Shown here piece by piece: positions 6,600 to 50,001 of a DNA stretch of 60,856 nt. This stretch comes from Bacteroidales bacterium (lineage in GTDB: Bacteria > Bacteroidota > Bacteroidia > Bacteroidales > UBA1715): contig JAFZOY010000013.1 of the NCBI GenBank assembly GCA_017552705.1, forward strand, positions 1 through 60,856, in the 5' to 3' direction. Position 1 is the first letter of the stretch. Each line of letters begins with the position of its first letter. The position numbers and the translations under genes were made by a program. The notes beneath the pieces are model-generated. The model was given only the letters and a program-made list of their open reading frames with translations, ran no database searches and was not told the DNA's origin.

Positions 6600-8138
6600 T
6601 TACCGTATATCCTGAACCAAACGCACGGAGCGTCCAAGTGCACGGCTGAAGTCGGAAACAATATCAATTTTTCCTTTGTTGAACACAAAATACCATGCAT
6701 TTTCACCTCCAGAAGCAGATGCTGTCCAATAGCTACCAGTTGTACCCACGTTACCGACGGTGGTTCCATAACGGCAACCAGCAGATGGCAAGAATATCGC
6801 GCCATGTGCTTCTAATTTCTTCCACTGTTCAAGAGTGTAGTTGTTCAATTCAAAACTTGTGCGTGCAATAAAATTGATGCCGCCCGGGCAAGTCCAATCA
6901 TCAGGAAGTATCAAAAGACCTTTTACTCCATTAACTATAGCAAGTGAATACAAATTTGACGCATTCGGACGTTTCAACAACATATATCCCCATTCCGCAC
7001 GGGTAAGTGTACGCCACATTCCAGCAGAATCACCAGCTTCCGAAATCACATTTGCCACCCCCCAGTCGGCTTCAGCGAATTTGCCACGTAAGCTATACTC
7101 GTAGGTTTGTCCATCGGTTGGACCATATCCATAGCCATACGTTGCCGATGCCGATTCCGTATCGTACGGCATATAGAATGTATTTCGGTTATACCAACCA
7201 CTTGTGCCCCAACCAAACAAATCAATCCAGCCACTGTTTGACCTTGAAATATTCGTATTGTCGGCACCGATAGCATCATATTGCTGTTCGGCAAATCTCC
7301 ATGTTTTGCTACTTGCCTGATATTGCAAATTTCCTTTCGAGAAATACACCTTTTTACTTGAGCCAACGGTAAATGGAGCGATAACCGCACCGTTCTCTAT
7401 ATTGACCGCACTGCTTGCCACCTGAGGCTCAGGCATTGTTGGTTCATCAACCACAATAGGTTCCTCAACAATAGGATTCAGCGGTTCTTCAGCAATAGGT
7501 GTGCTTTGAGGTTCTTTTGCAGGAACTAACACCGGTTGTACTGGCTCAGATTGAACAGGTTCACTTTGCGGAGCATCGTTAACCACAATCGGAGTTTCCT
7601 CCTTTTTATCTTTCTTTGTGGTCTTGGTTGCTTGCTTCTTTTCTTCTTGAACCACAGGTTCTTGGCTTGATTCTGCCGCTATCGGTTGTTCTATCTGAGG
7701 ATCTTGTTTTTTCGATTTTTTCTCAACCTTTTCAGGTTCAGCCTTTTTGTCAACAACAACCACATCGTTTGTCGGTTCCGAAGATTCCTTTACTTTTGGA
7801 GCGGACGGCATCGGTTCTTGTAACGGATATGCAGAGCCGCCTTCAAAAGCATACACATACACCGTTCTCGAGCAGAAAATATCGCATGTGATAGTTGTAA
7901 GCAAAAAATCGCCAAATTTAAATTTCGACCTGATTTCGCACGGTTCATTCGGTGTATTGGCATGAGCATGTCCCAACGGAATCAATCCGCCAAACAAGTA
8001 GTATTGTTTGGATTTATCGTATTGGTAGGTTTTTAAACCTTGTTGCTCCAGTTGCTTATAATTTCCTACCGTTGTCCATGTTGTGTAACACGATGTAAAC
8101 AGGACTAACGAGATTATACATATCAATAATTTTTTCAT
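6600..8138 (-). CDS. Bor-like lipoprotein fused to a C-terminal lectin/FISUMP-like domain
   Basis: 512 residues. The start is the ATG at 8138, because the promoter -7 box (8156-8163) would put the in-frame ATG at 8147 on the first transcribed base. A signal ending LFTSCYTTW gives a lipid-anchored Cys. Residues ~20-100 resemble the phage lambda Bor/Iss serum-resistance family (YYLFGGLIPLGHA, then LLTTITCDIFCSRTVYVY). Next comes a ~130-residue low-complexity linker rich in Glu, Pro, Val and Lys. The last ~250 residues are a domain shared with the ends of the proteins at 35695-39666 and 57885-58880: KVYFSKGNLQYQAS, SGWIDLFGWGTSGW, WRTLTRAEW, GRSVRLV. That domain resembles the FISUMP/DUF1566 group. 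It is probably a surface protein. Confidence 0.8.
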   Translation of the reverse strand: MKKLLICIISLVLFTSCYTTWTTVGNYKQLEQQGLKTYQYDKSKQYYLFGGLIPLGHAHANTPNEPCEIRSKFKFGDFLLTTITCDIFCSRTVYVYAFEGGSAYPLQEPMPSAPKVKESSEPTNDVVVVDKKAEPEKVEKKSKKQDPQIEQPIAAESSQEPVVQEEKKQATKTTKKDKKEETPIVVNDAPQSEPVQSEPVQPVLVPAKEPQSTPIAEEPLNPIVEEPIVVDEPTMPEPQVASSAVNIENGAVIAPFTVGSSKKVYFSKGNLQYQASSKTWRFAEQQYDAIGADNTNISRSNSGWIDLFGWGTSGWYNRNTFYMPYDTESASATYGYGYGPTDGQTYEYSLRGKFAEADWGVANVISEAGDSAGMWRTLTRAEWGYMLLKRPNASNLYSLAIVNGVKGLLILPDDWTCPGGINFIARTSFELNNYTLEQWKKLEAHGAIFLPSAGCRYGTTVGNVGTTGSYWTASASGGENAWYFVFNKGKIDIVSDFSRALGRSVRLVQDIR

Positions 8139-8155
8139 AATGCACATTTATTTCA

Positions 8156-8187
8156 CAAATATATGAAATTATGCTAACACGAAACAA
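8156..8187 (-). promoter_or_regulatory. Promoter of the Bor-like lipoprotein gene
   Basis: On the minus strand TTG (plus 8185-8187), a 21-nt spacer and TATATTTG (plus 8156-8163). Confidence 0.7.
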
Positions 8188-8266
8188 AAAATATTAATGA
8201 TAATTTTTCTTAGCAGTTTGAGGATTCACTGAACAGGCGAAAACTCTAAAACAGGCAATGTTTCAC

Positions 8267-8303
8267 AAAAAAGGCTGAACATCAACGATATTCAGCCTTT
8301 TTG
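8267..8303. terminator. iorA terminator
   Basis: An 11-bp stem, AAAAGGCTGAA with TTCAGCCTTTT, an 11-nt loop and T runs on both sides. It lies just after the iorA stop. Confidence 0.85.
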
Positions 8304-8308
8304 TTGCA

Positions 8309-9904
8309 TTAAGATTTTTGTTGTTTCTTTTTATTTCGGATTGCTGTTTGAACGCATTCTCGCTGGGCAAGAATCACTGAAACGCCGTCGTATTCGATTT
8401 CCTCTTTCAAAATCTGCATATTTTTTTCGAGATTAGCCTTTAACGGAACCATTACACGAATGTGTTCTTTCTCCACTCCAAGTCCCTCGCAAATAAGGTG
8501 TAGGCGGCTTGTTCCCGCAGAATCCTGTCCACCAGTCATAGCAGTTGTTGAGTTATCGGAAATAATAACAACCATTTTCGATTTATCGTTTACTGCATCA
8601 AGCAAGCCAGGCATACCAGAATGTGTGAAGGTGGAATCGCCAATAATAGCAACCGACGGGTGCAAACCAGCATCAGCGGCACCTTTCGCCATTGTGATTG
8701 AGGCACCCATATCGAGTGTTGTCGTAATGGCCTCGAATGGTTTCAGCGCACCAAGCGTGTAGCAACCAATGTCGCCGAATACGTGACGTTCCTTGTAGTC
8801 AGCCATCACGGTGTTCAACGCTTCATAGGTGTCACGGTGGCTACAACCTTTGCAAAGTGCAGGCGGACGGCCTACCATAAGTTCCGGAGTCGATACGGTT
8901 TTCTGTGGTGCAACACCAAGAGCCGTCGCCATAAAATCAGGATTCAACTCGCCTGTGCGGTTGAGAGCACCATCCAATTTTCCCCGTAGTTTTTTATTGT
9001 CGGAAAAACCGCGAAGATATTCTTCAACAATAGGATACCCCTCTTCGGCAATTAAAATATCATCATATTTTTCAAGGAATGCAGCAATTTGCTTGGTTGG
9101 CAGCGGATATTGCGAAATTTTCAAAACAGAAAAATCCAAATTGTAGCCCTGACGGATTTCCATAACATAGTTATACGCCAAACCGCATGCTATCACCGCT
9201 TTTTTACTGTTTCCTTCAACAATTTTCAGGAATGGAGAATTTTCTGATTCTTTCGTCAATGCAGGTTGCAAGTCAACCAACGCCTTGTACATTTTCTTTG
9301 CATATGCTGGCAAAGTAACCCAACGTTGGCGTTCAACCTGAGGATTGAAAGCATTCTGTTCATGGAATTTTCGTTTCGAGATAATAGAACGCGAATGTGA
9401 TAAACGCGTAGTCAGACGAAGAATCACCGGAAGTCTGAATTTCTCAGAAAAATCAAGACCAAACTGAACGCAATCATACGCTTCTTGCTGGTTCGAAGGC
9501 TCCAAAAGCGGAAGCAAAGCAAATTTACCATAGTAGCGGCTATCCTGCTCGTTTTGGGAAGAATGTTGCGATGGATCGTCGGCAACAACCAGCACCAAAC
9601 CACCGTTTACGCCTGTAATTGCAGAGTTCATAAACGGATCGGCACAAGCGTTCAATCCCACATGCTTCATACAAATTATGGCACGTTTACCCGCATACGA
9701 CATACCAAGAGCGGCTTCGTAGGCAGTTTTCTCGTTGCAACACCATTTCGAACGGATATTTTTCTCACGTGCGTCTTTCGATTTTTGAATAAATTCTGTT
9801 ATTTCAGTCGAAGGAGTTCCAGGATATGCGTACACGCCCGAAATTCCTGCGTCTATAGCTCCAAGAGCTACAGCTTCTGCTCCAAGCAGTAATGATTCTT
9901 TCAT
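8309..9904 (-). CDS. iorA: Indolepyruvate:ferredoxin oxidoreductase alpha subunit, without ferredoxin domain
   Basis: A TPP enzyme that oxidatively decarboxylates aryl pyruvates from aromatic amino acids, passing electrons to ferredoxin. Of 531 residues, the N-terminal pyrimidine-binding domain has GVYAYPGTPSTEITEF. The C-terminal TPP domain has LCKGCSHRDTYEAL, GDIGCYTLG, and IIGDSTFTHSG ending in ISDNSTTAMTGGQ, the GDS...N metal/TPP motif. The chain stops soon after ILAQRECVQTA, so the C-terminal 4Fe-4S ferredoxin domain of the archaeal enzyme is absent. No iorB lies on either side, which is unusual because the two are normally adjacent. The start (MKESLLLGAEAV) is set by the promoter at 9932-9961. 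Confidence 0.88.
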   Translation of the reverse strand: MKESLLLGAEAVALGAIDAGISGVYAYPGTPSTEITEFIQKSKDAREKNIRSKWCCNEKTAYEAALGMSYAGKRAIICMKHVGLNACADPFMNSAITGVNGGLVLVVADDPSQHSSQNEQDSRYYGKFALLPLLEPSNQQEAYDCVQFGLDFSEKFRLPVILRLTTRLSHSRSIISKRKFHEQNAFNPQVERQRWVTLPAYAKKMYKALVDLQPALTKESENSPFLKIVEGNSKKAVIACGLAYNYVMEIRQGYNLDFSVLKISQYPLPTKQIAAFLEKYDDILIAEEGYPIVEEYLRGFSDNKKLRGKLDGALNRTGELNPDFMATALGVAPQKTVSTPELMVGRPPALCKGCSHRDTYEALNTVMADYKERHVFGDIGCYTLGALKPFEAITTTLDMGASITMAKGAADAGLHPSVAIIGDSTFTHSGMPGLLDAVNDKSKMVVIISDNSTTAMTGGQDSAGTSRLHLICEGLGVEKEHIRVMVPLKANLEKNMQILKEEIEYDGVSVILAQRECVQTAIRNKKKQQKS

Positions 9905-9931
9905 ATTCTTTTGATTCAATAATTCGAGCGT

Positions 9932-9961
9932 CAAAATTACGCATTTGTGTTGAATAACCAA
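9932..9961 (-). promoter_or_regulatory. iorA promoter
   Basis: On the minus strand TTG (plus 9959-9961), 19 nt, TAATTTTG (plus 9932-9939). It overlaps the divergent ABC-transporter promoter, so the two probably compete for polymerase. Confidence 0.7.
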
Positions 9962-9980
9962 CAAAAAGTTTGTATTCTTG
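9950..9980 (+). promoter_or_regulatory. Promoter of the ABC transporter gene
   Basis: TTG at 9950-9952, a 20-nt spacer and TATTCTTG at 9973-9980, one mismatch to TAnnTTTG. It selects the ATG at 10006 over an earlier in-frame start at 9970. Confidence 0.6.
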
Positions 9981-10005
9981 CGATGGCGTTCAAAGTATTA
10001 ATATA

Positions 10006-11796
10006 ATGAATCTCATTCAGTTGTTTAAAAACATCTCTGGTTTTGTCCGTCCATATCGGTGGATAGTGCTCATCACGCTTATCCTTACGCTTATTGGTTC
10101 TTTGTTGGCACAGGTAAATGCAATTGTCCTTGACAAGACTGTTGATGCCATAAATCAATTGGTTGGTACCGTTGACTTTACGTGGGCTAAGGCGGCAAAA
10201 ATACTGACGGTCATTAGTATTATTCTATTGTCGAAAGAGTTGATTTCGGCACTTGTTACGTATGCGCAGAATTTCTTCGGCGAAAAAATGCGTATCGGCG
10301 TTTCGAAAGATATGTCGTTGGCTGTGGTTGAAAAAATACTCACATTTCGTGTCGCTTTTTTCTCGCATGAGGAGAATGCCGCGGGAATGTTGCAGACAAG
10401 AATAACGCAGGGTGTGATGAATTTGTCGAGGACGGTCCAGAATTTTTTCATCGACTTGCTCCCGCTGTTTACGAGTGCCATCATAGCATTGATTCTGATG
10501 TTTTCGGCAAATGTATATGTCGGATTGACGGCTCTTGCCATCGTTCCCGTGTATTTTATCATAACCATTCGTCAGGCGCGGAAACTAAAGGGCTGGCGGA
10601 GAAATATGCGTACGTCGCACGAGAAGCGGAGCCACGGAATCATGAACATCATTGAGAGCATTCATGTGATAAAGTCATTTAATCGTGAAAACATTGAAAA
10701 TGAGAAACATGGCAAGATTCAAAGTGAGTTTTACGACAATCAGATGAACGTCCGTCGGACGTCGTTTTATTACGATGCGCTGAAAACGTTCGTCCGCCAG
10801 TTGGGAACGGTTCTTATCATTATTCTTACGGCCTATCTTGTGCTGATTGACTATCCGGGAATGACAATCGGAAAAATCATGTATCACGTGATGTTGTTTG
10901 CAAACGTCACGGCTCCGATTAGTCAGTTACAACGAATTTTCGACGATATGAACGATGCCCTTGTCTATGCCGAGAGTTTCTTCGACATTCTCAATGCCGA
11001 TTCCGAGGTGGAGACAAGCGGAACGTACCGCCCAGAAACCATCCAAGGCAACATAGAAGTTTCGCATGTGGATTTCACTTATCCCAATGGCACAAAGGCG
11101 TTACACGATATTTCAATGAAAATAGAAAGTGGCAAAATTACCGCATTCGTCGGGTTGAGTGGAGCGGGAAAATCAACTATCATCAACCTTTTGGATAAAT
11201 TCTACGAACCCGATTGCGGAAGCATAAAACTTGATGGCGTTGATTTAAAAGAATACGACACGCAATATCTCAGAGAACATATTGGTTTGGTTTTGCAGAA
11301 AAATCACATTTTTGAAGGGAGCATAGAGGAAAATATTCGTTATGGTCGTCCCGATGCAACTCACGAGGAAGTACTGGAAGCAGCGAAAAAGGCGTATGTT
11401 TATGACCAGATTATGGAGTTGCCACGCAAATTTGAAACTTCGGCAACGGAGCTTTCTGGTGGGCAGCAGCAGCGAATAGCCATAGCCCGTATGTTTTTGA
11501 AAAATCCGCCGATAATTTTCCTTGACGAACCTACCGCTTCGCTCGATGCAGTTGCTACGGAACAAATCAAGACAGCTATCGACGATATGAAGAAAAACCG
11601 CACGGTAATCATCATCTCGCATTCCATTTCGCAAATCATCGACAGCGACCAGATCTATGCGCTGAAAGAAGGTCGCGTGGAACAAAGCGGCAATCCCGAC
11701 GAGGTGTATAAACAAGGAGGCGTTTACAAGGAAATTGTCGATGCGTCGGCACGAAGTCTTAACATTGAGAAATTGGCGCAGACGATAGAACTATAA
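10006..11796 (+). CDS. ABC exporter half-transporter (permease fused to ATPase)
   Basis: 596 residues. Residues ~1-320 are an ABC type-1 transmembrane domain with about six hydrophobic helices. Residues ~340-590 are the ATPase: Walker A GLSGAGKST, Q-loop VLQKNHIF, signature ELSGGQQQRIAIAR, Walker B IIFLDEPTASLD and switch His in ISHSIS. This MsbA-like architecture works as a homodimer or heterodimer in the inner membrane and usually exports lipids, peptides or drugs. The substrate cannot be told from sequence. No partner gene is adjacent; the next gene is the peroxiredoxin. Confidence 0.9.
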   Translation: MNLIQLFKNISGFVRPYRWIVLITLILTLIGSLLAQVNAIVLDKTVDAINQLVGTVDFTWAKAAKILTVISIILLSKELISALVTYAQNFFGEKMRIGVSKDMSLAVVEKILTFRVAFFSHEENAAGMLQTRITQGVMNLSRTVQNFFIDLLPLFTSAIIALILMFSANVYVGLTALAIVPVYFIITIRQARKLKGWRRNMRTSHEKRSHGIMNIIESIHVIKSFNRENIENEKHGKIQSEFYDNQMNVRRTSFYYDALKTFVRQLGTVLIIILTAYLVLIDYPGMTIGKIMYHVMLFANVTAPISQLQRIFDDMNDALVYAESFFDILNADSEVETSGTYRPETIQGNIEVSHVDFTYPNGTKALHDISMKIESGKITAFVGLSGAGKSTIINLLDKFYEPDCGSIKLDGVDLKEYDTQYLREHIGLVLQKNHIFEGSIEENIRYGRPDATHEEVLEAAKKAYVYDQIMELPRKFETSATELSGGQQQRIAIARMFLKNPPIIFLDEPTASLDAVATEQIKTAIDDMKKNRTVIIISHSISQIIDSDQIYALKEGRVEQSGNPDEVYKQGGVYKEIVDASARSLNIEKLAQTIEL

Positions 11797-44474: not shown

Positions 44475-45488
44475 TTATTCCACAAACGAAATCCAACCGA
44501 ACGGGTCGGCAATGTCGCCATATTGAATACCAACAAGCGTGTTGTACAAATCAACGCAGGTTTTGCCCGGATTAACTTGGTCGCCGAACGTGTATGTCTT
44601 GTTTTCGTCAGGATCGAACACTGCCGAAATAGGCGAAATAACTGCTGCTGTTCCACATTCTGCTGCCTCGTCACATTCTGCCAATTCCGTCAACGGAATT
44701 TGACGTTTTTCCACAGTTAGACCTTTTTTCTCAGCCAATGCCTGCAAACTCATATTGGTGATTGAAGGCAATATTGACGTTGATTTCGGCGTGATGTATT
44801 TGTCGCCCTTGATAGCGAAGAAGTTAGCAGGACCACATTCGTCGATGTATTTCTTCTCTTTTGGATCCAAATACAATGCAGCGCCATAACCCATTTCATG
44901 CGATTTGATTGACATGTTCAAGGCTGCAGCATAGTTTCCGCCAACTTTTACGGTACCTGTTCCAAGTGGAGCAGCACGGTCGGAACCACGTTCAACAATT
45001 ACTTTAATAGGTTTAAACCCACCTTTGTAGTATGGTCCAACAGGACTACAGAACAAAATCAGCAATACTTCGGTTGATGCGCTGATACCAAGACGTGGAC
45101 TCATACCGATCATCAACGGGCGGATATACAATGAAGCTCCCGTTCCGTATGGTGGCACGAAATCAGCATTTTCCTTAACCAATGTAAACAACATTTCTTT
45201 GAAAAGTTCCTGAGGAACTTCAGGCATACCAACACGTGCGGCAGAGCGGTTCAATCGTTTTGAATTTTCTTCCCAACGGAACACACGGATTTTTCCGTCT
45301 TTGCCACGATACGCCTTCAAACCTTCGAAACATTCCTGTCCATAGTGAAGGCATGTTGCTGCCATGTGCATATTGATGTTTTCGCTTTCGGAAACTTCCA
45401 TTTTTCCCCATTTGCCTTCGCTATAAAGGCATCGAGTATTCGATTTTGTTTTTAAATACCCAAATGGTAAATTAGCCCAATCAATCAT
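44475..45488 (-). CDS. ilvE: Branched-chain amino acid aminotransferase
   Basis: 337 residues, fold type IV PLP enzyme for leucine, isoleucine and valine. HYGQECFEGLKAYRGKDGKIRVFRWEEN, LYIRPLMIG, the PLP lysine in GTGTVKVGGNYAAAL, ALYLDPKEKKYIDECGPANFF and ECGTAAVISPI are diagnostic of the class II BCAT form. Its start is 11 nt after the stop of the cyclase gene, so they may be co-transcribed. Followed by a terminator. Confidence 0.95.
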   Translation of the reverse strand: MIDWANLPFGYLKTKSNTRCLYSEGKWGKMEVSESENINMHMAATCLHYGQECFEGLKAYRGKDGKIRVFRWEENSKRLNRSAARVGMPEVPQELFKEMLFTLVKENADFVPPYGTGASLYIRPLMIGMSPRLGISASTEVLLILFCSPVGPYYKGGFKPIKVIVERGSDRAAPLGTGTVKVGGNYAAALNMSIKSHEMGYGAALYLDPKEKKYIDECGPANFFAIKGDKYITPKSTSILPSITNMSLQALAEKKGLTVEKRQIPLTELAECDEAAECGTAAVISPISAVFDPDENKTYTFGDQVNPGKTCVDLYNTLVGIQYGDIADPFGWISFVE

Positions 45489-45499
45489 TTTATTACAAT

Positions 45500-48400
45500 T
45501 TAAATTATATTATTAAACTTACTTATTTGTTCCTGTAACCATTGAATATGTTTCACTTTTCCCGGATTCCGATGACTGCGGGAATAGTTCGTGTAATACT
45601 TGTGTTCCTGCAAGAACTGGATTTGACCAAGACACCACTTGTACTCGTTCTTTTCCACTATTTTTTGTTCGAGCAGTTCCTTGTATAAATCACGCGACAC
45701 ACAAACATAATCATTTCTTCCGAGATAATCCAAATCTGCATCACAGATTATTTGTTCAAGCAACGTTTCTGGTTTTGCCGACATCATTGTACACAGAATC
45801 AAATCGCATACTTTTTGAATTTGTTCCTCAGTATAACCTTCGTTGGGTAACATTTCGCGGGCAATTTCCACGCCGGCATATTCGTGTTTGTTGTAAGTTC
45901 GCATAAATCCAGCATCGTGGAACAATGCCGCTGTTTTCAGGATATACATATCCTCATCGCTCACCCCTTCCGCTTGTCCGATAACCTCAACCTGAACAAC
46001 CACATCAATTGTATGTTTCAAATTATGGTAGAAATATGTTTTGGGCAAATGTTCTTCGAGAAGTGTATAAACATCTTCCTGCAAACCTTCGAAGCGCAAC
46101 AATGCCAATTTTGCCGAAAATACTTGGTTTGGAATCGCCTTGAACGGATGTTCTGAAAATACAGCCTTGAAACCATTCACAAAGTACATATCGGCTTTCT
46201 CCTCCTTGCCTTGAACTTGGATTTTCCCCCGATATTCGCAGTCGAAAAACTCACGTACCATTATAAATGTACTTTCCGAAACATTTACCCGCCCTACTTC
46301 GCCCGATGCTTCCATTCTGCTGGCAATGTTCACGCTGTCGCCCCAAATATCGTAGGCGTATTTTTGTCCATCGACAACGCCAGCAATAACTGGACCCGTG
46401 TGGATTCCAATACGAATTCCCCATGATTCGGCACCTTCGGGAATATCTTTCTGCAATTCCTTCAGACGATATTGCATTTCCAACGCGGCTGCAACAACCT
46501 CGATAGGGTTCGTTGTGTTCTTTTTAGGAATACCGCCGGCACACATATACGAGTCGCCAACCGTTTTGATTTTCTCGACATTGTATTTCTCAACAATCTT
46601 ATCGAATTCCGAGAAATATTTTTCCAATTCTTGTATCAACGATTCCGCGGAAACTTTCTTTGCTATTTTTGTAAATCCCTTGAAATCAGAGAATAAGACA
46701 GTTGCCACATCAAAATTCATTGAACGCATCCGTTCCGCTGGCGCAAACCCATTTCGATTTGCATTTTCCACATGTTCCGATGGAGATTCAGTGGAAGGAT
46801 ATTGTTCCGCAACCGTTGGTTTTGCCACAGTTTTTGACACAATTTTACGTGCTTTCCGCTTGTTTTGTTCCGAAAATTGCCAAACGCCAATAATTGCCAG
46901 CACAAGACCATAGAATGCAAACGCCCATCCCGACAATAATGGATTTGGGCTTACGCGGAATTCAAACACCGTTTCTCGTGAAACCGCACCGCCTCCAGTT
47001 TTCGCTTTCACGTGGAACGCATATTTTCCAGCGGAAAGATTGGAATATTCCACCTGAGTGTTCGACGTGGTATGCGACCACGTTTTTTCCATGCCTTCCA
47101 AATAATATGTATATTGTATGTCGTCGTGGTTCTCGTATTCCACCGCAACAAAATCGAACAAAAGCGACTTGAAATCATACGGCAACGACAAATCGCCGGA
47201 AGTCACTGTCAACAGTGAATCTCCATTCACCAACACCTGCGACATCCGCACATTTCCCAACGTTTTCTTAACCGAGAGTTGGTTGAAATCCATTCTAACC
47301 AAATTGTCATCACTACCGACCCATACTACCGAATTTTTGCCAGGATAGAATGCTGTGACATGGTTTCCACGTACTTTCGAGAATGGAGCGGTAATGAGCG
47401 TGTACCGTTCCGAATTATTGGTATTCCACGCAACCGCTATCTGGCTTTCGTATTGTCCGCTGGTTTGAAGCGCCAGCCACAAATTCTTGTCGGCATCTTC
47501 ACGAATGGGCGAAACAAATATATTTCCCTTTGGAAGAAGAATTTTTCCGTCACGGTAGAAGAAATTATTCTCGCAATCGCAGCGGAACAGACCTTGGGCA
47601 GTGGAGAACACACAACCCGACGAAGTTTCAAACACATCAATCCGTCCATGATTTTTCGGTAACCCCTGCCATTCGCACGGAACAATATCAAACGATACCA
47701 CCGAATCACCTTTCGACTTCACGTGCGTCATCCACACGCCGTCGGATTTTGTTCCGAAGAATGCAAAATATCGCTGGAAGTGGTCTTGCGCAACCGTTGT
47801 AATTTCAATATTGTCGGATATTTTCGTTTGAACCCATCTCTTGAACGTAGGCATTTCCTTCCAAACGGTAACAGAATCACTGGAAACAGTCACCAATAAA
47901 TTTTTGTCGAACATAAACGCACTGTTTATGGATTCCGAACTAAACCGCTCACCAGTCAACAGGTTTATTAGACCTTTACCCGTAGCGGCAAACAATTTCC
48001 CGTGAAATTCCATCAACACATTGCAACTGGAATGAAGTATTTCAACAGCCTTCCCGTTTTCAATCTTAAACACTCCGCAGTCGGTGCCGACGTATAGCAC
48101 GCCTTTGAATTTCTCCATACAAAGCACGCTTCCCACCAAACCATTATACTCATTATAATATGTAATGGCAGGATTTACCTCGAGACGGATAATATTTGAA
48201 AACGTGGTAATCCAAATGCTGTTGTTTTTGTCAACGAAAATCGACTTGATATTGCTTTCGGGGAAACCATTTTGTATATTAAGTGAGAATCCCAAAAGTC
48301 CCCTTGTGTCGATGGCGATAAATCCGTGCGACTTCGTTCCGATACCAATTGCCATATATGCAATTTGGTAGAAACATGTGATTTCACCATTTTTCAGCAA

Positions 48401-49094
48401 ATCATCGACTTCAGTGCGGAATGGAACTGCAATTTTTTCAGGCGTGATTTTCACAAAACCGTCGGGAGTCGCAAAATACGTACAATCATCAACATGTTGG
48501 CAATCAAGAACAGTAATTGGATGTGACACAGCCAATTTCAGAGTTCCGTCATATTCATACAAATAATTCTGCGTAGCCACATACAATATATTTCTATCGA
48601 GGAAAATACGGCTCACCTCGCCATCAACGTCGATTTTCTGCGGAACGCTGTCGCGGACCACATACAATTGTTTTTTAGCGACAAAAAATAATTGTCCGTT
48701 CAACGCAACCACATCAGAAATTTTTCCGAAAGAATAATCTTCATCGCGCAAAACAGAACGCATATAACGGCGATTGCAGTCGTCAACGCACATTTCAGAA
48801 AGGGAACTAATCGCAGCAACGTAGATTTTTCCGGAAGCATCGCGGCAAATCGACGGTCTTCCGTGAGTTGCATACAACTTCCATGTTGCTCCGTCGAACA
48901 CAACCACACCAGCATCGTTTTCGAAATACAACACATTTTCACCATCCTGCACAATCTTTCCCCATGGTCCCGCATACCCTATAAAATGTGGTGAAATCGT
49001 TTCATAATACGGGATTCCGAGCTCTTCGATTTGACCAAAAGCAGCAATCCCGATTAAAAAGGACAACAAAAAAAATATGCGTCTAATAGAAACC
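45500..49094 (-). CDS. Membrane sensor with beta-propeller, class III nucleotide cyclase and HD domain
   Basis: About 1198 residues; the only upstream start is a TTG (49096-49094). A signal peptide (ends IAAFGQ) is followed by a periplasmic two-component-regulator propeller (to residue ~640) and a Y_Y_Y domain (YTYYLEGMEKTWSH). One membrane helix lies near 722-745. The class III cyclase spans ~790-970: metal Asp in LFSDFKGFT and KTVGDSYMC, the specificity Lys in EKIKTVGD and Asp in YDIWGD predicting ATP as substrate, and VNIASRME with the catalytic Asn and Arg. The last ~170 residues are HD-like: YHNLKHTIDVV, LFHDAGF, CDADLDYLGR. It may thus both make and break cAMP, or the HD part may act on another nucleotide. 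Confidence 0.85.
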
Positions 49095-49176
49095 AAGAAT
49101 ATTTTTTATTATTTTTAACACGCTTTTTCAAACCTTGGTTAGAAAAAGCATTCAAAGTTATCAAAATATTAAAATT

Positions 49177-50001
49177 ATGGAACATTTACAGAAAACTATT
49201 TTAGTTGCATGGGATTTTACCAATGTTGCGGAGTATGCAATGCAGCATGCAATCCGTTTTGCGGAAACAATTGGTAGCACCACGGTTACACTATTACACA
49301 TTGTTGACGACGAGAAAGAAATTGACAACGCGATGTCGCAACTCAAAATAGTGGCTGACGATGCACAAAAGAAATACAACTTCAAATTAGAATATTTAGC
49401 TGTGAAAGGTGATATTTTCACCACAATCACGGAATATGCGAACAAATTGTCGTGCCCGTTTGTATTTATGGGAACACACGGCATAAAAGGTTTGCAGAAA
49501 ATCACAGGAAGCTGGGCGCTCAAGGTTATCGAAGGTTCCAACTGTCCATTTATTGTTGTTCAACGTCCACCTCGCGACGAACACTTTGAAGACATTGTTT
49601 GCACAGTGGAATACAAAAAAGAAGACAAACAGAAAGTTGGTTGGGCGGTTTACCTCAACAAATTCTTCAAATCAAAAATTTATCTGTACATTCAAAAGAG
49701 CACCGACTCTAATTTGAAACGCCAGATTTATTCAAACTTAGTGCATGTGAAATCTATCCTCGACCAAAACAAGATTGAATACACCGAAGTTGAGGGAGCT
49801 GGAAAAGATGACTTCGCAGAAGAAGTTATTGAATATGCAAATTCAATCAATGCGAATGCAATTTTAGTTTCCACTTATAAAGAATTGGATTGGGCTGACT
49901 ATATGTTTGGTGCCAACGAACAAAAAATCATCGGTAACAAATATGGTATTTCCGCAATCACAGTGCTTCCAAACGCTGGAAAACTGAAAGGTTTTAATTA
50001 A
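49177..50001 (+). CDS. Universal stress protein, tandem UspA domains
   Basis: 274 residues from MEHLQKTILVAWDF at 49177; an earlier in-frame codon at 49135 adds 14 unlikely residues. The first Usp domain (to ~140) has TVTLLHIVDD and a degenerate ATP motif MGTHGIKGLQKITGSWALKVI followed by NCPFIVVQRPP. The second (~150-274) is more diverged: ANAILVSTYKELDWADYMFG and ITVLPNAGK. A cytosolic stress protein; nucleotide binding is likely for the first domain only. Ends in a GTAG-type terminator. Confidence 0.88.
   Translation: MEHLQKTILVAWDFTNVAEYAMQHAIRFAETIGSTTVTLLHIVDDEKEIDNAMSQLKIVADDAQKKYNFKLEYLAVKGDIFTTITEYANKLSCPFVFMGTHGIKGLQKITGSWALKVIEGSNCPFIVVQRPPRDEHFEDIVCTVEYKKEDKQKVGWAVYLNKFFKSKIYLYIQKSTDSNLKRQIYSNLVHVKSILDQNKIEYTEVEGAGKDDFAEEVIEYANSINANAILVSTYKELDWADYMFGANEQKIIGNKYGISAITVLPNAGKLKGFN

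Follow-up and report, generated by a model that had tools for sequence, protein, structure and literature searches.

Within the analyzed window, i.e. the whole 60,856-nucleotide stretch of contig JAFZOY010000013.1 of a Bacteroidales bacterium, a single open reading frame (ORF) on the minus strand (45500-49096; designated P0001) was distinguished, which starts with TTG and encodes a protein of 1198 amino acids (aa). The earlier note had placed this gene at 45500-49094; the locus was correct, and the true frame is 2 bases longer, ending at 49096. The following features were assigned at the locus:

44475..45488, minus strand: ilvE-like branched-chain aminotransferase gene, directly downstream of P0001 (named by inspection; recurs in many relatives)
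45500..49096, minus strand: whole gene P0001, propeller-TM-cyclase-HD, 1198 aa (ORF and Pfam)
49034..49096, minus strand: signal peptide, approximately aa 1-21 (hydropathy maximum at residue 1, without a cleavage-site prediction)
47177..49033, minus strand: periplasmic propeller region, approximately aa 22-640 (Reg_prop and phmmer match to 3v9f)
46952..47137, minus strand: Y_Y_Y domain, aa 654-715 (PF07495, E 3e-12)
46874..46939, minus strand: transmembrane (TM) helix, approximately aa 720-741 (hydropathy)
46721..46873, minus strand: linker, aa 742-792, transducer motif absent (motif scan; dN/dS 0.32 for aa 741-792)
46175..46720, minus strand: class III nucleotide cyclase domain, aa 793-974 (PF00211 and catalytic residues)
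45503..46129, minus strand: phosphodiesterase (PDE)-like HD domain, aa 990-1198 (Pfam HD, AlphaFold2 model and motifs)
49135..50001, plus strand: tandem universal stress protein gene, divergent, likely ATG at 49177 (PF00582; conserved neighbour)

The protein gave four kinds of Pfam match, all above the curated cut-offs: (i) Reg_prop (8e-11), (ii) Y_Y_Y (aa 654-715; 3e-12), (iii) Guanylate_cyc (aa 793-974; 1e-49) and (iv) HD (aa 1026-1121; 7e-8). Hydropathy maxima at the N-terminus and at residues 720-738 indicate a signal peptide and one TM helix, and aa 281-719 match the solved propeller sensor 3v9f (phmmer E 1e-10). No Pfam match to a histidine kinase output or to a ppGpp synthetase domain was found in the 1198-aa protein. 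The presence of a propeller sensor, a class III cyclase and an HD domain on one chain, as described in the earlier note, is thus borne out by Pfam domains over their cut-offs in a single frame.

Catalytic residues and coupling of the cyclase domain

The cyclase domain scores 169 bits against PF00211 (cut-off 21.9), and the closest solved chains are those of mammalian AC8 and AC9 (E ~1e-49), followed by a bacterial Cya. Its catalytic hexad is complete, comprising D804 and D848, K844 and D916, and N923 and R927, which we take, from mammalian adenylyl cyclase, to serve the metal, the substrate and the transition state, respectively. The Lys/Asp pair from which ATP had been predicted as the substrate is therefore present in both its members (K844 and D916). 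PADLOC models of PycC also match the domain (best 3e-15) and relatives of the HD domain are fused to PycTM, as would suit a Pycsar-like cyclase whose product is another cyclic mononucleotide (cGMP, cCMP or cUMP). We consider such a product very unlikely, since the two residues form a pair of the ATP type, the PF00211 match is much stronger (1e-49), PycTM was found in none of 14 genomes of the family, and the neighbourhood is conserved and of a housekeeping type.

A cyclase-transducer element precedes the class III cyclase domain, though not in all class III cyclases. We assume that this element is represented here by the pre-cyclase motif LLxNxLPxxTAxEL, which occurs in 38 of the 40 membrane-type proteins whose hexad is intact (a count that omits B-type rows and uses a pattern that misses the 'YxPKEEFEKL' form, the L051 group being scored as motif-negative). 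The two exceptions are P0001 and its closest relative, L037. P0001 also carries an Asp (D909) at a position occupied by Gly in 142 of 150 proteins; this count leaves out 32 rows with too little sequence upstream of the cyclase, and a further 11 and 2 rows in which the HD is altered.

The missing transducer motif suggested that the cyclase might be a decaying pseudogene, and this possibility was rejected on the basis of the dN/dS value of 0.027 obtained for the domain in the comparison of P0001 with L037. This is the strongest purifying selection within the protein, the corresponding values being 0.055 for the HD domain, 0.14 for the propeller and 0.32 for the linker. Because the cyclase (0.027) and the linker (0.32) differ in this way, it is the coupling helix, and not the cyclase, that is decaying. 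The P0001 cyclase is probably still functional, but uncoupled from the usual transducer helix. Two relatives from the same genus have a damaged cyclase, namely L038 (R927S) and L041 (N923K and R927L). In another member of this genus, L048 (positions 7936-10938), the frame encodes a propeller, Y_Y_Y, a TM segment, a helix and HD, and the cyclase is missing altogether; this protein is a natural test case for HD as the output.

The HD domain and its likeness to phosphodiesterases

The C-terminal HD domain (PF01966, 33 bits; cut-off 22) contains the full His/Asp set expected from the first reading of the sequence, with all six residues (H1024, H1028, H1060, D1061, H1071 and D1121) present. Another Asp, D1119, was considered as the metal residue and dropped in favour of D1121, since D1119 is retained in all 21 HD-altered members; D1121 is lost in all 21. 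On sequence grounds, D1121 is a candidate metal ligand and fits the 'ADL' register of PDEs.

The AlphaFold2 model of the domain (built with 65 sequences) has a mean pLDDT of 94. A Foldseek search with this model placed 2pq7 first and YpgQ second, followed by many class I PDEs (E 0.007-0.03). The top VIA-align match was PDE10A (Z 18.2, 2.8 A, 198 of 209 residues aligned), and further PDEs included PDE6C (Z 17.4), RhoPDE (17.3), PDE5 (17.2) and PDE2 (17.1). Non-PDE structures scored about level with these, i.e. 2pq7 (Z 17.4, 3.9 A, 168 residues) and YpgQ (17.1, 2.9 A, 180 residues), so that HD hydrolases of the YpgQ type tie with PDEs at Z 17.1-17.4, within approximately 1 Z of PDE10A. In its sequence, the HD domain is most similar among PDB entries to the uncharacterised HD proteins yedJ, 2pq7 and BH2835, and it does not reach the cut-off of PDEase_I (PF00233; 14.3 versus 24.8 bits). 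The modelled fold and the residues together favour a metal site in this domain.

Sequence comparison with PDEs showed that the helix carrying the YHNxxHxxDV motif and the HD helix align with those of PDE9, PDEB1 and PDE4B. With hhalign, the domain matched PDE4B over 55 columns (E 0.0004), with YHNxxH and HD in register, at a probability of just 37. When the domain was compared with PDE4B by ungapped sequence blocks, the YHN (z 5.4), HD (z 5.8) and 'AT' (z 3.6) blocks landed at their PDE4B places; those of the QxxF and HE blocks were not recovered by sequence in this comparison. The pair Q1158-x-x-F1161 covaries with the HD site: it is present in 66 of 66 intact-HD proteins versus 1 of 13 with a broken site among 79 order-wide proteins, and in 101 of 101 versus 2 of 21 altered ones in an earlier set of 122, which overlaps the former in P0001 and a number of family rows. 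The position of Q1158 and F1161 suggests the glutamine and phenylalanine clamp of PDEs, a placement that the block comparison does not recover.

These results also bear on the substrate. The HD domain could act on something other than a cyclic mononucleotide (an NTP, ppGpp or a dinucleotide), in which case the fusion would join two separate nucleotide pathways; the tie in fold score with YpgQ-type and other HD hydrolases, the uncharacterised HD proteins at the head of the PDB sequence matches and the sub-threshold PDEase_I score are in line with this. We consider it unlikely in view of the YHNxxHxxDV motif and the covarying QxxF pair, and of the association of the domain with both class III cyclases and PycTM (described below). 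A further point against it concerns the Arg directly before the first His, common in HD phosphatases according to the review PMC8177086, which is not conserved in this HD family.

Distribution, gene linkage and site states

The genome that carries P0001 (160 contigs totalling 2.95 Mb; completeness 97.5%, contamination 4.7%) encodes three PF00211 proteins: P0001, C81, a soluble cyclase of 275 aa without HD, and C28, a soluble protein of 444 aa with the same HD, in whose cyclase the first metal Asp is replaced by Lys and D916 by Glu. The cyclase-HD part was matched in each of the 14 family genomes sampled. A scan with the HD alignment, using one genome per species, yielded 80 loci with a class III cyclase in-frame in all 80, and the records of these loci all name members of Bacteroidota, bar one labelled Chlorobiota. 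The cyclase-HD profile matched 95 of the 148 genomes sampled from the order, and full-length matches, by our own count of rows, were present in 58 of 148 (G022 has a stop between the two domains); because of this last figure, the pairing is beyond chance. In a sample of the phylum, 126 of 198 genomes gave a match, mainly to one domain. The cyclase-HD architecture is real and widespread, and it is new as a combination of kinds already known, namely a class III cyclase, a PDE-like HD and a propeller sensor. Searches of the open-access PMC literature listed no paper that describes such a cyclase-HD fusion; databases may already contain the domain order without an accompanying publication.

The HD domain is also found outside the order, (i) alone, (ii) with TPR repeats, (iii) with a YitT membrane domain, (iv) with GAF and a cyclase, and (v) with PycTM. 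The fourth context is exemplified by a GAF-cyclase-HD frame (L276, 3666-8000; 1445 aa in the stretch seen), which is a version with a cytosolic sensor. Among 10 stand-alone HD genes checked, six directly follow a class III cyclase gene of the same orientation (L205, L207, L208, L210, L213 and L214), and no cyclase gene was seen in the available flanking stretch of the remaining four (L209, L211, L212 and L215). HD-PycTM fusions were found in both proteins examined in that size class (L273, 1324-2565, E 4e-30; L277, 847-2124, E 6e-34); such a fusion is possibly an effector carrying its own off switch. It is because of the fusion, the gene adjacency and the PycTM partner that we tie the HD domain to cyclic mononucleotides.

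The two sites are kept and lost separately. In the 79 order-wide proteins (L199, with a stop between the domains, left out), both sites are intact in 32, HD alone in 34 and the cyclase alone in 11, and both are altered in two, which gives 66 proteins with a full HD set and 43 with a full cyclase hexad. The earlier sets of 122 proteins (A_L048, A_L049 and A_L050 left out), collected with HD patterns and hence biased toward an intact HD, gave 43 with both sites, 58 with HD alone, 21 with the cyclase alone and none with neither (HD intact in 101, cyclase in 64). Fisher tests on the raw tables, with descent ignored, returned p = 0.03 (79) and 2e-7 (122); the site-state counts are not independent of descent, and an independent-pairs test, which corrects for it, found no link between cyclase and HD states. 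On a tree of 93 proteins, the cyclase state changed at least 8 times and the HD state at least 4 times. At many loci, a gene for a soluble cyclase-HD protein is accompanied, approximately 3 kb away, by one for a membrane cyclase whose HD is broken.

The more frequent conservation of HD than of the cyclase (66 versus 43 of 79, and 101 versus 64 in the HD-biased set of 122) would be expected if the HD domain were the sole catalyst of a sensor-controlled phosphodiesterase, with a vestigial or regulatory cyclase serving as a dimeriser or nucleotide-sensing module. L048, a propeller-TM-HD protein without a cyclase, and the absence of both the transducer motif and the conserved Gly from P0001 point the same way. 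We regard this as possible, though less probable, for P0001, in which the cyclase keeps all six catalytic residues and is under the strongest selection in the protein (dN/dS 0.027). We think that both domains of P0001 would work, the HD domain being the safer bet.

The gene order uspA (divergent), cyclase-HD, ilvE is syntenic in the family. Among the 80 loci, 42 genes encode membrane-type cyclase-HD proteins, and a uspA relative adjoins 22 of them and an ilvE relative 18 (both in one case, neither in three; the ilvE tally includes three frames, of L075, L077 and L115, that overlap the cyclase-HD end). Neither neighbour was found at any of the 59 soluble-type genes from these loci. No PF00582 match other than the stress protein gene at 49135-50001 was found in the genome. 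Universal stress proteins that bind cAMP have been described in mycobacteria (PMC11107214), and we propose the genetically linked stress protein as a candidate cAMP receptor. We do not take it to be a proven cAMP binder: by our reading of its alignment to 1mjh, it has Ala in place of Gly-10 of the cAMP-binding mycobacterial protein (PMC11107214).

A CRP-family partner, for which the earlier note had suggested searching, was sought among proteins with a cNMP-binding fold. The genome encodes three of these, one family 2B-type encapsulin and two CRP/FNR-like proteins, and neither of the latter has the phosphate-cassette Arg. This residue (R82) is absent from all three proteins as well as from all 25 alignable loci of the family (30 cNMP loci, of which five without a CRP alignment were dropped). 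To judge from these sequences, the CRP route looks closed. The encapsulin (C137; L004, 1189-2628) is of the family 2B type with an internal cNMP-binding fold, and its gene adjoins a cysteine-desulfurase-like gene. It was considered as a cAMP reader and rejected, the cassette Glu being present and the Arg absent; the cNMP-binding domain of encapsulins is termed putative in a passage of PMC8346489.

Proposed function and relation to known systems

We consider it moderately probable that P0001 is a ligand-sensing membrane receptor which pairs a cAMP-making class III cyclase with a cAMP-hydrolysing HD phosphodiesterase, the two sites being kept or lost separately. This reading draws on the observed domain order, residues, fold similarity, conservation and gene linkage, from which we infer the substrate, product, direction of control, ligand and receptor. 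Binding of a ligand by the periplasmic propeller and Y_Y_Y would shift the geometry of the dimer, and this shift would move the balance of two opposed activities: the formation of cAMP from ATP by the homodimeric class III cyclase, and the hydrolysis of cAMP to AMP by the HD phosphodiesterase, predicted kin of eukaryotic class I PDEs in fold and motifs. Members across the order would comprise synthase/hydrolases, hydrolase-biased proteins with a pseudo-cyclase and synthase-biased proteins with a pseudo-HD. The set in this genome would consist of a membrane receptor with both sites, the soluble pseudo-cyclase-HD protein C28 and the soluble HD-less cyclase C81.

The earlier note had argued that opposed activities in one protein suggest tight control. 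In both fold and motifs the HD domain is similar to PDEs of cyclic nucleotides, and fusion and gene adjacency link it to class III cyclases; the opposed activities therefore stand as a specific prediction. Control of both of them by the sensor is doubtful in P0001, whose transducer motif is gone, and in view of the cyclase losses in L038, L041 and L048.

The cyclase of P0001 shares with class III adenylyl cyclases the full hexad with the ATP-type Lys/Asp pair and its match to mammalian AC chains (E ~1e-49), and differs from them in lacking the transducer motif and in being fused to a PDE-like HD and a propeller sensor. The periplasmic propeller with Y_Y_Y is shared with hybrid two-component sensors, e.g. 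3v9f; the output of P0001, in contrast, is cyclase-HD without a histidine kinase. Pycsar systems likewise have a class III cyclase, and other members of the phylum have this HD in fusion with PycTM, a Pycsar effector domain, whereas the family studied here lacks PycTM, has ATP-type residues and was seen in no defence context.

RelA/SpoT homologues combine in a single polypeptide a synthase and an HD hydrolase that oppose each other, and some relatives have lost one of the two sites. The cyclase-HD chain is similar, by analogy only, in its predicted opposed activities and in the single-site losses among relatives, and differs in its unrelated synthase, in its predicted substrate (cAMP instead of ppGpp) and in its transmembrane sensor. 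Extending this analogy, we tentatively suggest a Bacteroidales cAMP switch built like RelA/SpoT, in which one ancestral chain of a cyclase and a class-I-type PDE would have given rise to balanced, hydrolase-only and synthase-only paralogues, with propeller sensors, and in which the signal would be read by the linked tandem Usp and not by CRP. The open-access literature searched contains little on cAMP signalling in Bacteroidota. If the proposal is true, one conserved locus yields a maker of cAMP, a fused breaker of the eukaryotic PDE type, a sensor and a receptor candidate, and the synthase/hydrolase family known for ppGpp has a counterpart for cAMP.

The P0001 HD domain resembles class I PDEs (PDE4, PDE5, PDE9, PDE10 and RhoPDE) in fold over nearly all of its 209 residues, with 2pq7 and YpgQ about as close, has YHNxxH and HD in register with them, and carries a candidate QxxF clamp. 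It differs in being approximately 100 residues shorter and below the PDEase_I cut-off, and the equivalence of the glutamine is a presumed one. If the proposed reading holds, the natural occurrence in bacteria of a cyclase with its own fused PDE-like domain would bear on the origin of the eukaryotic class I PDEs.
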